DNA of 64,000 bases from Nocardiopsis xinjiangensis YIM 90004 (GTDB lineage Bacteria; Actinomycetota; Actinomycetes; Streptosporangiales; Streptosporangiaceae). A program made the translations under genes and the position numbers. A model generated the notes under the pieces. It was not told the DNA's origin and did no database searches. It saw nothing but the letters and a program-made list of their open reading frames with translations. Of the stretch, positions 41,955 to 46,919 are shown one piece after another. The DNA is taken from the NCBI RefSeq assembly GCF_000341145.1, contig NZ_ANBE01000006.1:75301-139300 (forward strand), written 5' to 3'. Each line of letters opens with the position of its first letter. Within the stretch, counting starts at the first letter, position 1.

Positions 41955-42974
41955 CTACTCATCAGCAGCCAACTCCCGCAACACCCCATAAGTACGGTTC
42001 ACCGAAGCCGCCTCACGCCGCGCCCCCTCACTCACCTCGATATAAGCCTGCGACGAAGACACCGACGCATGCCCCAACAAATGCATGATCTCGGTGACCG
42101 AAGCCCCGTCCTCGGCCAACCGCGTCGCGAAAGTGTGCCGCAACGCGTGCACCAACGTGCCCCGCGCCACCCGATCACCCACCCCCGCATGCCGATAACA
42201 CTGCTGCACCAAATACTGCAGACCCCCGCGCCGCAACCCCCGGCCACGGTTGTCCACCAACAACGCCTCCTCATCACGCACCGCACGCCCGAACCGCCCA
42301 CGCCGCGAGACCAGATACGCCTCCAACAAAGCCTCCAACGGCCCCTCGATCGGCAACACCCGCTCCGAGCCGCCCTTACCCACCACCCGAACCCGACGCT
42401 CCCCGGGCCGACCACTGACCGCATCCACCCGCAACGACAGCATCTCCGCCGACCGCATCCCCGTCAGCAACGCCAACGCCAACACCGCCAGATCCCGCTC
42501 CGGCCACGGATCCCGCGCCTTACGCGCCCCCTGCGCCAGAGCCCGCAACAACTGCTCCGGGGTGTCCTCACCCCGCAACGGCTTCGGAGCCGCCGAACGC
42601 ACCCTCGGCCGCGGCACCGCCGACATCGGATTGCCCGCCAACACCTGCTCAGCCACCCAGAACCGAAAGAACCCGTTCCACGTCGACCACGCCCGCACCA
42701 CACTCGAAGCAGCCCGCTCAGCAGCAAACTCCGCAAACGCCGACCGCAGCACCACCACCTCCAGCCGACCCAACTCCACCTCTTCGGGCCGAACCTGCAC
42801 CACACGCGCCACACACCCCAGCACCGCATGCAGATCCCGCCGGTAGGCCGCCACCGTGTGCGCCGAGGGCTTGGCCGCACCCCGGGCCCGCAAATACTCC
42901 TCCACCAGATCGACCACCCGATCACCGCCGCGGCGGCCCGACCCGTCTGCGTCCTCGTCGTGTTGCACACCCAT
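41955..42974 (-). CDS. XerC/XerD-type tyrosine recombinase
   Basis: 339-residue Xer-type recombinase. The core-binding domain (VDLVEEYLRARGAAKPSAHTVAAYRRDL) is followed by the catalytic domain with Arg in LLTGMRSAEMLSL, Lys in VVGKGGSERVLPI, HALRHTFATRLAEDG (H-x-x-R), HLLGHASVSSSQAYIEVS and the nucleophile Tyr311. Its gene lies 0.4 kb from a symmetric Xer-like site and 0.8 kb from a dif-like site. That proximity recalls XerS/difSL and XerH/difH, where a single recombinase gene sits beside its site. ATG at 42974; ATG 42986 is an alternative. Confidence 0.9.
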   Translation of the reverse strand: MGVQHDEDADGSGRRGGDRVVDLVEEYLRARGAAKPSAHTVAAYRRDLHAVLGCVARVVQVRPEEVELGRLEVVVLRSAFAEFAAERAASSVVRAWSTWNGFFRFWVAEQVLAGNPMSAVPRPRVRSAAPKPLRGEDTPEQLLRALAQGARKARDPWPERDLAVLALALLTGMRSAEMLSLRVDAVSGRPGERRVRVVGKGGSERVLPIEGPLEALLEAYLVSRRGRFGRAVRDEEALLVDNRGRGLRRGGLQYLVQQCYRHAGVGDRVARGTLVHALRHTFATRLAEDGASVTEIMHLLGHASVSSSQAYIEVSEGARREAASVNRTYGVLRELAADE

Positions 42975-43116
42975 ACCCCACAGCATCCCCCATCGGCCCG
43001 CCCCGGCCCCACCCGCACACAGATCCCGACCGCGCCGCGCCCCAGGCCCAGGAAGAGGGGGTGTGCGCAACGGTCACCGCGGGGGAGCGGACCCGGGGCG
43101 GGGGAGCACCCACAGC

Positions 43117-43131
43117 GTTCGCACAGCGAAC
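43117..43131. repeat. Dyad copy 1 upstream of the recombinase
   Basis: GTTCGC-ACA-GCGAAC, a perfect 6-bp dyad, about 145 bp upstream of the Xer-type gene. A second, nearly identical dyad lies 99 bp to the right. Confidence 0.6.
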
Positions 43132-43215
43132 ATATGGCGGGTGCCTGGAACTGAGGCAACGGGGCAGGGGAGGGCCGAGGAAGATCCGGCAAGCAGCAGA
43201 CCGGGGGAGCGGGTC

Positions 43216-43230
43216 GTGCGCACAGCGAAC
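43216..43230. repeat. Dyad copy 2 upstream of the recombinase
   Basis: GTGCGC-ACA-GCGAAC, one mismatch from copy 1 (43117-43131). Surrounding sequence (GGGGGAGC before, GGCGG after) is also shared, so a segment of roughly 30-40 bp looks duplicated. Possible operator pair. Confidence 0.6.
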
Positions 43231-43372
43231 GTCGGCGGCTCTCTCATGCACGGAGCAGGGGAGGACGCCGGCGCCGAGGGGCCAGGGGAGAAGGTCGACC
43301 GGCCGAGTCGATCACGGCGAAGCGGTCACGACACCACCGAGAAACGCCCAAACAGCCGCAAAGCTCACAAAA

Positions 43373-43398
43373 TCATGCATAACACAGTTTATGCATGA
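43373..43398. other. Perfectly symmetric Xer-like recombination site
   Basis: TCATGCATAA (43373-43382) and TTATGCATGA (43389-43398) are exact reverse complements separated by 6 bp (CACAGT). Arm-6-arm with inner CATAA and TTATG ends is the dif architecture. In a very GC-rich genome this A/T-rich perfect dyad is striking. It differs from classical dif by having two identical arms, as expected for a single-recombinase site. Confidence 0.7.
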
Positions 43399-43787
43399 AA
43401 CATGACAAGAAGGGGCTAGGGGCTAGGAGTCGCCCGGCGCAGAGGACCGGAAGCCCGCACACACCTTCCACCAACACCACCCCTCAGGCCACAAGAGACG
43501 CACACCCACACGCCAGGACGCATCCCCACAGAACCCGCAGGCCAGAACACAAGAACCCCACAAGACCTGCGGAAACACCAGGCACACCGAACCAGCCGAT
43601 CAGCGCCCACAGAACACACAGAGCCACACAACAGACAGCCACGAACCCCAACGGGCCACCGAGCCGAACACACGAGAGCGCGCAGCCTCCCACACGGCCC
43701 GCCCGCGCCACAGCGGCCCACAGAGCAACAACACGCACAGAACGCGCGGGCCCAGCAGCCGCCCACCCCTTCTCCCAGCCCACACAC
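43399..43787. other. Gene-poor segment between the two Xer-like sites
   Basis: A 389-bp A/C-rich stretch with open frames on both strands (140 codons rightward, 129 leftward). The rightward product is a His/Thr/Pro/Arg string with no domain, and the leftward is Cys/Gly-rich. I consider neither a convincing gene. The segment is bounded by two dif-like sites. Confidence 0.5.
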
Positions 43788-43815
43788 AACGCCGATAATG
43801 CACATTATGTCAAGT
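43788..43815. other. dif: dif-like chromosome-dimer resolution site
   Basis: A 28-bp site: left arm ending GCCGATAA, 6-bp centre TGCACA, right arm beginning TTATGTCAAG. It aligns with E. coli dif without gaps at the ATAATG and ATTATGT-AA blocks, and closely resembles actinobacterial dif sites as known in the literature. XerC and XerD bind the two arms to resolve chromosome dimers at the terminus. A Xer-type gene lies 0.8 kb to the left. Confidence 0.85.
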
Positions 43816-43968
43816 AAAGCGGATCAAAGACACCACAACCCCTACCCCACAGGCCACCCAGCACCACACCCACCACCACACCAACACCAACCCAAAACCT
43901 CACCCACCCATCACAACCCCGACCAAAACACTCACACCCCCACCCCGCACCTGCCTATGCTGCCCCCT

Positions 43969-44121
43969 ATGCTCATCCACCTCATGTGCCGCTCCTGCCT
44001 GGGCAGCGGAACACGCGTGGACCTCCACGCCCACCGCGACATGGGACAAGCCCTCGCCAGACGCCCCTGCCCCGACTGCCACGGCAACGGCCACCACACC
44101 CAACCCGCCACCACCCGATAA
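43969..44121 (+). CDS. Mini-protein with two CxxCxGxG zinc motifs
   Basis: 50-residue product from ATG 43969 (alternatives ATG 43957 and 43984) containing CRSCLGSG and CPDCHGNG separated by 23 residues. CxxCxGxG pairs form the zinc centres of DnaJ-type cysteine-rich domains. The longer frame begins inside the dif-like site, but that extension is a His/Pro string and unlikely to be translated. No J-domain is present. Starts 0.15 kb right of dif. Modest confidence because it is short, but the paired motif is unlikely by chance. Confidence 0.5.
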   Translation: MLIHLMCRSCLGSGTRVDLHAHRDMGQALARRPCPDCHGNGHHTQPATTR

Positions 44122-44140
44122 CACCCGAACCACAACACAC

Positions 44141-45181
44141 CTACGACAACCGCACCCAACCCGTCCTCACCCACCACCGACCACCCCGCTCCAACCGATC
44201 CACCACCGCACGCTCCAACCGCGTCCCACGCGGAGCACGCCCCACATCCACCTCCGACATCCCAAACACGAACCGAAACACATCCGCCTCCCCCGCACGC
44301 CCCTCACCCACCAACGTGAACCGACGCTGAAACGCCACGATGTTGGAACCCTCCCCCAACACCTCGGCCCACTGCGGATCCAACAACCACGACGTACACG
44401 TAGCCACCACCGGATCCAACCCCAAACACTCCCGCGCAAAAGCCCCCGCACGCCCCAACGACTCCTCCACACCCGCCGGATCCAACCCACCCGACGGAAT
44501 GTGCAACCGCAACACCGGATCCCCCACACCCATCCCCGCACCCAACCCGGCCGCCTCCCGCGGCCCATACCACTCCACCCCCGCCTCACACACCAACCGC
44601 GCAGGCTCCAACTGCAACGCCCCCACCCAGAACAAACGCCCCCGAAACTGCACAGCCACCCACCCCGACGTCTCCAACGACAACCACCCCCACATCCGAC
44701 GCGACCGCGCCACCTGCACCCCCACATCCGCCAACGTCGCCACCGTCACCGAACGCGGAACCCCCCACCGCGCCTGAACCGCCAACTGCGCCGGCACCAT
44801 CGCCGCGAACGCCCACAAAGACGCCACCCGCACACGCCGATCCCCGACCCCCACCAACGTCGGCCACACCCGAAACTCCCCCACCGGCAGCTCCACATCC
44901 GCCCACAACCGCCGATACATGCACTCCACCACGTGCCACAGCTCCGGCGACCACTCCCCAACAGACCCCCCACGGCCCCCACCGGCATCACCCGGCCACA
45001 ACGCCTCCACCTCGGCACGATCCCGCTCCGCCAACCCGAACATGTCCAACACAGCGGCCGCCTCCGCACCCGTAGGCACCCGCAAAGGCCACTCCGGAAC
45101 CGGCAACCGCTCCGCCTCGGCCAACCACTCCCCCACATCCGGACCCAGACCGAACCGTTCCACCACAACGCTGCTCTCCAT
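44141..45181 (-). CDS. Acyltransferase-domain protein (NAT_N/GNAT_C type)
   Basis: 346 residues similar in layout to actinobacterial acyltransferase-domain proteins built of an NAT_N-like N-terminal half (GPDVGEWLAEAERLPVP, ELWHVVECMYRRLWADVELP) and a GNAT_C-like C-terminal half (LRLHIPSGGLDPAGVEESLG, SWLLDPQWAEVLGEGSNIVAFQRRF). The cofactor loop is not canonical. Function unknown, possibly small-molecule or peptide acylation. ATG at 45181 with GGAGG eight nt upstream. Divergent from the acyl-CoA ligase gene across a 118-bp gap. Confidence 0.75.
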   Translation of the reverse strand: MESSVVVERFGLGPDVGEWLAEAERLPVPEWPLRVPTGAEAAAVLDMFGLAERDRAEVEALWPGDAGGGRGGSVGEWSPELWHVVECMYRRLWADVELPVGEFRVWPTLVGVGDRRVRVASLWAFAAMVPAQLAVQARWGVPRSVTVATLADVGVQVARSRRMWGWLSLETSGWVAVQFRGRLFWVGALQLEPARLVCEAGVEWYGPREAAGLGAGMGVGDPVLRLHIPSGGLDPAGVEESLGRAGAFARECLGLDPVVATCTSWLLDPQWAEVLGEGSNIVAFQRRFTLVGEGRAGEADVFRFVFGMSEVDVGRAPRGTRLERAVVDRLERGGRWWVRTGWVRLS

Positions 45182-45217
45182 GCCCCCATCCTCCAACCAC
45201 GTCAACCACCCACGCGA

Positions 45218-45299: not shown

Positions 45300-46919
45300 A
45301 TGCCCGACCCCGCACAGCGCGTGGCCGACTGGCTCGCCACCTACGACACCCCCACCACGTCAGTGGCCCACCTGCTCTGCGACCGCCACGAACCCCACAC
45401 CACCGCCATCACCGAGGTCGGCCCCACCCTCGCCCCCACCACCCTCACCTTCGGAGAGCTCACCGAACGCTCCCGCGCCCTCGCCACCGGCCTGGCCGAC
45501 CTCGGCATCGGCCACGGCGACCGCGTGGCCACCCTCCTGCCCAAAGGCATCGACCTCACCGTGACCGCCCTGGCCGTGTGGCGCCTGGGCGGGGTCCTCG
45601 TTCCCCTGCTGTCCTCCTTCGCCCCCTCCGCCGTCAACGACCGCCTCCTGGGATCCAACGCCCGCCTGGTCGTGTGCCTGGACGAGCACCGCGGCAAACT
45701 CGACCCCCACCCCAACACCACAGACCACCCCACCTGGCAGATCGCGACCGTGGGCCCCGAACCCACCCGCGACGGCGACCACACCCTGAACGAACTCTCC
45801 CGACGCGGCACCGGCCCCGCCCCCGAGGTCGCCGTCGGCGGCTCAGGCACCATCGCCGTGGCGTTCGTGTCCGGACTCGCCGGACCACCCCGAGGCGTGG
45901 TCGTTCCCGCCCGAGCCCTGGCGGCGATGCACTCCTACCACCACTACGGCCTGGGGGTGGAGGACGAGGACGTCTACTGGAACACCTCCGACCCCGGCAG
46001 CGCCTACGGCCTCTACCACGGCCTCATCTCGCCGTTGCTGGCCGGACACGGATCCCTGGCACTGCGGGCAGGCTTCTTCGACCCCGAACTGACCCTGGAC
46101 GTGCTGGGCATGTACCAGGTCACCAACCTGGCCACCGACCCCACCACCTACCGGACACTGAGGGCGGCCACCAAGACCCTGCCACCCGAGGTCATGGTCC
46201 AGCGCCTCTCCAGCGCCGGTGAGCAGCTCTCCCCCGAGGTCATCGCATGGGCCGCCGACATGTTCGGTGTTCCGGTACGCGACCATTACGGACAGACGGA
46301 GCTGGGCTGGTGCGCGGGGGCACCCAACGGCGATACCGGGGAGCAGGACCAGCCCCTGGCCCCGGGGGCGGTCGGCGGATCGCTACCGGGGTGGCGGATG
46401 CGTGTACTGGAGGCCATCAGCGACGAGCCCGCTCCGGTGGGCGCCTACGGACGTGTGGGGGTGGACCTGGCGGAGAGCCCGTTGGCGTGGTTCACCGGAT
46501 ACCTGGACAACGAGGCGGCCTCGCAAGTGCGCTTCACCCCCGAGGGTGACTACTACCTGACGGGCGACACCGGGATCCTGGACCGTGAGGGGCGGCTGCA
46601 CTTCTCCACGCGCGACGACGGGGCGATCCTCACGCACGGGTACCGGATCGGGCCCGCGGAGGTGGAATCGGTGCTCAACGAGCATCCGGCGGTGGATGAG
46701 TGCGGGGTCTACTCGCTGCCCGACGAGATCGCCGGGCAGCTGGTCGGAGCCCGCATCGTGCCGGCGAACGGGTTCGAGGCCGGCGACACATTGGCCGAGG
46801 AGCTGCGTGAGTGGGTGCGCTCGCGGTTCGCCCCGCACGCGGCGCCCGCAGAGGTCGAATTCGTGGCGGAGCTGCCGCGTACCGCCTCGGGCAAGATGCG
46901 GCGGGCCCGGTTGCGTTGA
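45300..46919 (+). CDS. Acyl-CoA synthetase-like (ANL superfamily), divergent P-loop
   Basis: 539-residue adenylate-forming enzyme of the acetyl/medium-chain acyl-CoA synthetase group. Core motifs: DHYGQTELG (A5), YLTGDTG (A7), HGYRIGPAEVESVL (A8, hinge) and TASGKMRRARL with the catalytic lysine (A10). The phosphate loop, normally TSGTTGxPKG, reads VSGLAGPPRGV, so the Thr/Ser cluster and Lys are changed. The strand composition switches within the gene near 46250: C-rich 5' part, G-rich 3' part. ATG at 45300. Substrate unknown. Confidence 0.85.
   Translation: MPDPAQRVADWLATYDTPTTSVAHLLCDRHEPHTTAITEVGPTLAPTTLTFGELTERSRALATGLADLGIGHGDRVATLLPKGIDLTVTALAVWRLGGVLVPLLSSFAPSAVNDRLLGSNARLVVCLDEHRGKLDPHPNTTDHPTWQIATVGPEPTRDGDHTLNELSRRGTGPAPEVAVGGSGTIAVAFVSGLAGPPRGVVVPARALAAMHSYHHYGLGVEDEDVYWNTSDPGSAYGLYHGLISPLLAGHGSLALRAGFFDPELTLDVLGMYQVTNLATDPTTYRTLRAATKTLPPEVMVQRLSSAGEQLSPEVIAWAADMFGVPVRDHYGQTELGWCAGAPNGDTGEQDQPLAPGAVGGSLPGWRMRVLEAISDEPAPVGAYGRVGVDLAESPLAWFTGYLDNEAASQVRFTPEGDYYLTGDTGILDREGRLHFSTRDDGAILTHGYRIGPAEVESVLNEHPAVDECGVYSLPDEIAGQLVGARIVPANGFEAGDTLAEELREWVRSRFAPHAAPAEVEFVAELPRTASGKMRRARLR

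Follow-up and report, generated by a model that had tools for sequence, protein, structure and literature searches.

Xer1, a third Xer-type recombinase, and a palindromic candidate site beside dif at the chromosome terminus of Nocardiopsis xinjiangensis and related actinobacteria

The resolution of chromosome dimers is commonly attributed to one system per chromosome, either XerC and XerD acting at dif or a single Xer recombinase. For the single-recombinase systems XerH/difH and XerS/difSL, the accessible parts of PMC5357621 and PMC2731167 describe a terminus with one inverted-repeat site and one recombinase genetically linked to it, and XerL/dif of Legionellales is reported, in the accessible part of PMC9765430, as the resolution system itself, with an XerL orthologue that is plasmid-encoded in one species. 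Here we describe a locus in 64,000 nucleotides of Nocardiopsis xinjiangensis YIM 90004 (the window) in which a canonical dif is accompanied by a third Xer-type tyrosine recombinase, Xer1, and by a palindrome, site 1. It is like XerH/difH and XerS/difSL in the linkage of one recombinase to one inverted repeat at the terminus, but it is found alongside XerC, XerD and dif, its site is a perfect palindrome with 10-bp arms, and the XerS score is only 71 bits. With XerL it shares plasmid relatives, whereas the Xer1 module stands beside XerCD/dif and XerL is the system itself. Compared with XerC/XerD-dif of Actinobacteria, the 28-mer shares the 11-6-11 layout, and the best XerC and XerD matches are both present in the genome, but here a second recombinase lies within 2 kb and a second site within 0.5 kb. 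No companion recombinase or site is mentioned in the accessible parts of PMC3025954, PMC5357621, PMC9765430 and PMC2731167, and no description of a companion Xer at an actinobacterial dif was found in the open-licence literature as far as its text was available, a scope that leaves out preprints and subscription journals, where one may be in print. We consider it probable that the terminus carries two Xer-type sites, i.e. dif for XerC and XerD, and the palindrome of a dedicated Xer1 forming a single-recombinase resolution module. The new part is the companion module, while dif itself is ordinary. The elements concerned are the following.

41955 to 42974, minus strand: Xer1, third Xer-type tyrosine recombinase, 339 amino acids from the chosen ATG
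42975 to 44140, no strand: inter-gene stretch holding the palindrome and dif, flanked by well-supported genes
43373 to 43398, plus strand: companion palindrome (site 1), predicted Xer1 site, with arms at 43373-43382 and 43389-43398 and centre at 43383-43388
43788 to 43815, plus strand: canonical dif, with XerC-side arm at 43788-43798, 6-bp centre at 43799-43804 and XerD-side arm at 43805-43815

The Xer1 protein matched the Pfam model Phage_integrase and its SAM-like domain. Assignment to XerC or XerD was rejected, since Xer1 scored 165 bits with the XerC family model (cut-off 335) and 145 bits with the XerD model (cut-off 330), while better matches, L002 for XerC (295.7 bits) and L003 for XerD (290.7 bits), were found elsewhere in the genome; these two are named by best match, as neither reaches its equivalog cut-off (335 and 330, respectively). 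The initial annotation had placed a Xer-type gene 0.8 kb from dif, and the gene start indeed lies 0.81 kb away, but it had overlooked that this gene is neither xerC nor xerD and that a palindrome lies 421 bp from dif. With 71.3 bits in the XerS model, far under the cut-off of 267, Xer1 is, judged by score, not an XerS orthologue. Among PDB sequences, plain matching (rather than a XerH family model) gave 55.8 bits for XerH, weaker than the 96.6 bits for XerD. Residues R174, K200, H276, R279, H302 and Y311, which we take to be the six catalytic positions, were unchanged in 92/92 aligned homologues. An AlphaFold model of Xer1 had a predicted local distance difference test score (pLDDT) of 82 and a predicted template modelling score (pTM) of 0.58. 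A mycobacteriophage integrase was its top fold match, followed by XerD, XerA and XerH, with template modelling (TM) scores of 0.4-0.6 only, as expected if the two domains of Xer1 sit in a different arrangement. In a tree of 31 rows, which carries a long-branch warning, Xer1 was separate from XerC, XerD and Xer2, a second companion candidate considered below. The locus shows what is found in single-recombinase modules, namely a gene linked to its site, a short-centred inverted repeat at the terminus and a full set of catalytic residues together with the fold of a tyrosine recombinase. It does not replace XerC and XerD in the window genome, which has both; only one lineage, described below, lacks XerC and dif.

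Site 1, TCATGCATAA-CACAGT-TTATGCATGA, is a perfect 10-bp inverted repeat with a 6-bp centre and is located between Xer1 and dif, on the XerC-arm side of the latter. A chance match was rejected, as the window held one match against none in 100 shuffled sequences and the reversed control gave none in 200 genomes. Conservation within the genus was assessed in 33 loci, those of the window and of 32 further genus genomes, out of 34 in which dif had been found. All 33 carried site 1 (at most 1 mismatch) 276-774 bp from dif on the XerC-arm side. The Xer1 gene was matched in 31 of them, and in the other two the contig ended less than 1.7 kb from dif on that side. Its position was variable: in 17/31 loci Xer1 was more than 2.5 kb from dif (3-8 kb in some loci), and in 16 loci two ordinary genes lay in between, by reading of the sequence a candidate acetate kinase and a candidate phosphoketolase. 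Since site 1 is fixed near dif while Xer1 shifts, site 1 belongs to the dif neighbourhood and is not merely part of the Xer1 promoter. The arms of site 1 were almost fixed, while the centres, compared in named loci with an Xer1 match, differed by clade (GGGATA in 13/15 Micromonospora loci, GTGCGA in five genera of the lineage in which dif was not detected). Site-specific recombination needs centres that are equal in the partners and otherwise free, so that this pattern of arms and centres would fit a crossover region.

These observations bear on the possibility that the palindrome is an operator controlling Xer1 expression, either through Xer1 itself or through a regulator, with dif as the sole recombination site. 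In Amycolatopsis and Micromonospora the palindrome is often no more than about 100 bp away from where the Xer1 match begins, and plasmid relatives of Xer1 are arranged similarly, as an operator would be. However, the palindrome keeps its distance from dif in the 17 loci with a remote Xer1 and in the 16 with intervening genes, two genomes without dif have the gene about 89 and about 306 kb from the site, and a clade-conserved 6-bp centre between fixed arms suits a crossover region. We therefore regard an operator as an unlikely explanation. Apart from this, four G-rich repeats of the GGGGAG type were observed at 43093-43291, in a C-rich stretch between Xer1 and the palindrome, on the far side from dif.

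The joint occurrence of Xer1 and site 1 was also followed in wider samples. In the family sample (n=200), Xer1 was found in 71 genomes (E <=1e-50) and site 1 in 61 (at most 1 mismatch), 59 having both by hand count, and exactly one copy of site 1 was present in 60 of the 61 site-bearing genomes. The class sample (n=394) yielded 33 genomes with Xer1 and 27 with site 1; 26 had both and one, a 470-contig assembly, had the site alone (Fisher p 3e-33, relatedness ignored). A scan of 84,980 species revealed at least 119 exact site 1 palindromes, and the counts that follow refer to the matches listed. A canonical dif (at most 1 mismatch) was located 266-1197 bp away (median 492) in 88/119, an Xer1 homologue was present in the locus (within 8 kb) in 97/119, and 77 palindromes had both and 11 neither. 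The last group comprised some members of the lineage without detectable dif as well as three metagenome-assembled genomes titled Acidimicrobiaceae, Rickettsiales and Clostridiales, whose palindromes are probably chance matches. The genera represented among the matches listed include Nocardiopsis, Streptomonospora, Amycolatopsis, Kibdelosporangium, Actinokineospora, Micromonospora, Actinoplanes, Kribbella, Streptosporangium, Planobispora, Sphaerisporangium and Actinomadura.

Relatives of Xer1 were found on 59 plasmids (PLSDB), mostly of Mycobacterium and Rhodococcus, and were 34-37% identical to Xer1 among the 30 matches listed. These plasmid tyrosine recombinases fall into the same protein clade in the tree and have a similar upstream palindrome: in 7/10 plasmid loci a palindrome with a 6-bp centre and arms ending in ATAA/TTAT lay about 90-410 bp before the matched stretch, a count made without a chance control. 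They differ in being plasmid-borne and in their diverged arms and sequences. Dimer resolution would be the obvious use of such genes on plasmids. Their occurrence on the plasmids of Mycobacterium, Rhodococcus and kin, together with the frequent use of dif by mobile elements, could also indicate an origin of Xer1 and its site by capture of a mobile element, similar to an integrative mobile element exploiting Xer (IMEX), which integrated near dif and has since decayed. Two flanking sites would then be expected, but nearly all site-bearing family genomes have exactly one. In addition, linkage to dif is kept in several named families, the Xer1 gene tree mostly follows the families (with the exception of Kribbella, which groups with Amycolatopsis), and no relative of Xer1 was found in phages at E <=1e-15. 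A captured element is therefore considered highly improbable.

The 71 Xer1-bearing family genomes split into two groups. In 39 genomes Xer1 was at least 64% identical to the window protein, and dif was present in 34 of these; in the other 32 the identity was at most 60%, and dif (at most 1 mismatch) was found in none. XerC and XerD subfamilies were searched in 44 chosen genomes, 28 outside and 16 inside this dif-less lineage. A XerD-level match (at least 298 bits) was obtained in 44/44 genomes, one of which carries an in-frame stop, and a second match at XerC level (254-289 bits) was obtained in all 28 genomes outside the lineage. Neither XerC nor dif was detected in the 16/16 genomes searched inside it; they had Xer1 and XerD, and nothing scored between 157 and 298 bits. 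The lineage includes Streptosporangium pseudovulgare, Planobispora longispora, Thermocatellispora tengchongensis and an Actinomadura. Two palindrome families were found 310-771 bp apart in 17/20 of its loci. Of the remaining three, one had a degenerate site 1 only and two had neither palindrome, Xer1 having moved off; the distances of about 89 and 306 kb given above refer to two genomes of this lineage, measured from the Xer1 gene to site 1.

The second palindrome, ACCGGACAGAA-N6-TTCTGTCCGGT, was present in 102/200 family genomes (at most 3 mismatches), while the reversed control matched one genome. It was at first sight a candidate for a new, symmetrised dif, but this was dropped, since it also occurs beside intact dif. 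Among the matches listed, hand-read nearest pairs on the same contig had the second palindrome on the XerC-arm side of dif in 47/47 cases, at distances of 332-3980 bp and within 1.2 kb in 39 of the 47. In eight genomes of dif-bearing genera without Xer1, compared by position, another Xer-like gene was located about 2-22 kb from dif. Judged by co-location, the recombinase acting on the second palindrome would be Xer2, a second companion Xer. Two companion modules, apparently interchangeable, emerge from this, and dif and XerC seem to have been lost in the lineage in which both modules are present. Several family genomes hold extra copies of the second palindrome. In genomes of genus g88 (G125, G155, G176, G196, G211) no match to canonical dif and no Xer1 were found, and some of them had the second palindrome.

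The same data bear on the question of whether Xer1 might act on sister termini for another job, such as terminus holding, decatenation or a step at the sporulation septum, apart from XerCD. Outside the dif-less lineage, the 28 genomes tested all encode both XerC and XerD, and the genera named in the palindrome scan, among the matches listed, largely have a filamentous life style. On the other hand, a lineage without detectable dif and XerC needs some dimer resolver, and the plasmid-borne relatives suggest resolution. A separate role of this kind is considered rather unlikely.

For the preferred reading, a resolution module beside dif, we infer the following course of events, including binding, cleavage, dimer resolution as the product and any use of FtsK. 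XerC and XerD, encoded elsewhere in the genome, would resolve chromosome dimers at dif. At each palindrome two Xer1 molecules would bind the two equal arms, and palindromes on sister termini would synapse. The active tyrosines of Xer1 would then cleave where the arms meet the 6-bp centre, and strand exchange by Xer1 would convert the dimer to monomers, like XerH at difH and XerS at difSL. Several observations weigh against this reading. A second resolution system looks redundant in the window genome, where XerC, XerD and dif are all present, and a XerD-level gene is retained in all 16 dif-less genomes, albeit with an in-frame stop in one. Binding and recombination of Xer1 at the palindrome are predicted from sequence. 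The orientation is not fixed, with the palindrome on the XerC-arm side of dif in 52 cases and on the opposite side in 36, among the matches listed. Site 1 (at most 1 mismatch) was missing from 7/33 Xer1 genomes of the class sample and 12/71 of the family sample, 3/10 plasmid loci had no comparable palindrome and the count of 7/10 lacks a chance control. The genomes are related, so that the counts are not independent, and the closeness of site 1 to Xer1 in Amycolatopsis and Micromonospora, mentioned above, would also suit an operator.

The dif site itself reads AACGCCGATAA-TGCACA-TTATGTCAAGT, with an 11-6-11 layout of 28 bp and a conserved XerD arm, which bears out the architecture proposed in the initial annotation (an arm ending in GATAA, a TGCACA centre and a right arm). 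The suggested resemblance to actinobacterial sites was borne out as well, as it differs by one base from the site suggested for Frankia alni in the accessible part of PMC3025954. The core pattern GATAATNNNNATTATGTCAAG was matched once in the window and by none of 100 dinucleotide-shuffled sequences (at most 3 mismatches). A better-conserved site elsewhere would have argued against the identification, but the 28-mer occurred only once in the draft genome (5.33 Mb, 90 contigs; at most 3 mismatches; reversed control 0). The site was correctly described as A/T-rich, with a G+C content of 39% (11/28, hand count) against about 67% in the region, and as lying outside any convincing gene: it is intergenic between the Xer1 gene start (42974) and a NAT_N/GNAT_C gene (about 44141-45187). 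An open frame at 43798-44121 starts within dif, at the base that closes the GATAA arm, and extends beyond the site. It contains a small CxxCxGxG zinc-ribbon-like stretch, its DnaJ-zinc match (24.4 bits) being the only domain match and below the Pfam cut-off of 32.7; its real start probably lies downstream.

Exactly one dif (at most 1 mismatch) was found in 47 of 60 genomes, comprising the own genome and relatives (reversed-control matches 0), and within the genus in 35/37; in the family sample 133/200 genomes had dif. Nine genus genomes have their chromosome on one large contig, and in these the distance from dnaA to dif was 34-50% of the contig, eight of them having 46-50%. The N. xinjiangensis assembly is a draft in which dnaA is on a different contig (C24) from the window, so that an origin close by, which would have spoken against a terminus, was not encountered, and the terminus position of dif is taken from these relatives. 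We conclude that 43788-43815 is a genuine, ordinary canonical dif and that the window, as had been proposed, contains the chromosome terminus.

A change of strand composition had been noted 2.4 kb from dif, and the cumulative GC-skew minimum was found at contig position 121535 (window 46235), 2.44 kb away. Two further features are concerned.

1 to 46235, no strand: zone that is C/A-rich on the plus strand, ending at the skew flip and starting on the contig at about 65-73 kb
45300 to 46919, plus strand: AMP-binding enzyme gene, with the skew flip (46235) inside it

What had been overlooked is that the flip is unlike ordinary replication skew, being origin-like in polarity and gone within about 50 kb. 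The G/T-rich strand leads away from dif on either side, as would usually be the case at an origin. In the 33 genus loci, with the dif top strand read in 2.5-kb bins 2.5-10 kb to the left, GC skew was -0.12 to -0.45 and AT skew positive, and the cumulative minimum lay anywhere from 1.6 kb left of dif to the right-hand limit of the sequence examined, which covered 10 kb. Compared by eye, the flip in many relatives follows the AMP-binding gene or the gene next to it, not dif. Of twenty 20-kb stretches sampled in the complete relative G005, most were within 0.06 of zero, apart from one of +0.11 (AT skew -0.31); left of dif the skew faded from -0.28 to -0.03 over 50 kb, and a further block of -0.18 was present 20-30 kb right of dif. 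As most G005 stretches are near zero and the skew at dif runs counter to the usual G/T excess of the leading strand, plain replication skew is thought unlikely. A codon or gene-direction effect was rejected, since GC skew at four-fold sites left of dif was -0.61 for genes of both strands (genes picked by homology among open frames). Motifs orienting FtsK are also thought unlikely, a judgement made without motif statistics, as the distance between flip and dif can reach 10 kb or more and the direction of the G-rich strand is away from dif.

Among 27 hand-picked palindrome loci of other genera, skew was negative on the left and positive on the right in 23 of the 24 with two-sided data, although weakly in some, L199 being the exception. 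In the dif-less lineage the pattern was seen by eye in about 14 of 20 loci. Eight dif loci of other families, without Xer1 or palindrome, had skews of only -0.12 to +0.08. At the loci L243, L266 and L281 the palindrome is accompanied by little skew, which argues against a strict link between the two. One lead for the origin of the skew is outward synthesis after fork fusion. Another lead is strand exposure during terminus breakage, a breakage described for Escherichia coli recB in the accessible part of PMC5638614.

Taken as a whole, we would tentatively suggest, with somewhat more doubt than assurance, that many filamentous actinobacteria combine XerCD/dif with a plasmid-type single recombinase acting, about 0.5 kb from dif, at a symmetric site, that in one lineage this companion and a second palindromic Xer site took over and XerC and dif were lost, and that activity at the locus leaves an origin-like skew, as if synthesis or strand exposure ran about 50 kb outward. 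If so, a conserved second module together with a lineage losing XerC and dif would show the replacement of one resolution system by another, and the step from two recombinases to one would become testable. New pairs of Cre-like recombinases and sites, with known arms and variable centres, would also be on offer, and the origin-like skew centred on the terminus may record a strand-specific terminus process outside ordinary replication.

Two further skew blocks were observed away from dif. In genome G020, about 110 kb left of dif (L137-L154), a sharp edge from about 0 to +0.43 GC skew was present, fading towards dif, as an inverted relic of once dif-adjacent DNA would. A similar skew block was located at 0-15 kb on contig C6 of the own genome.
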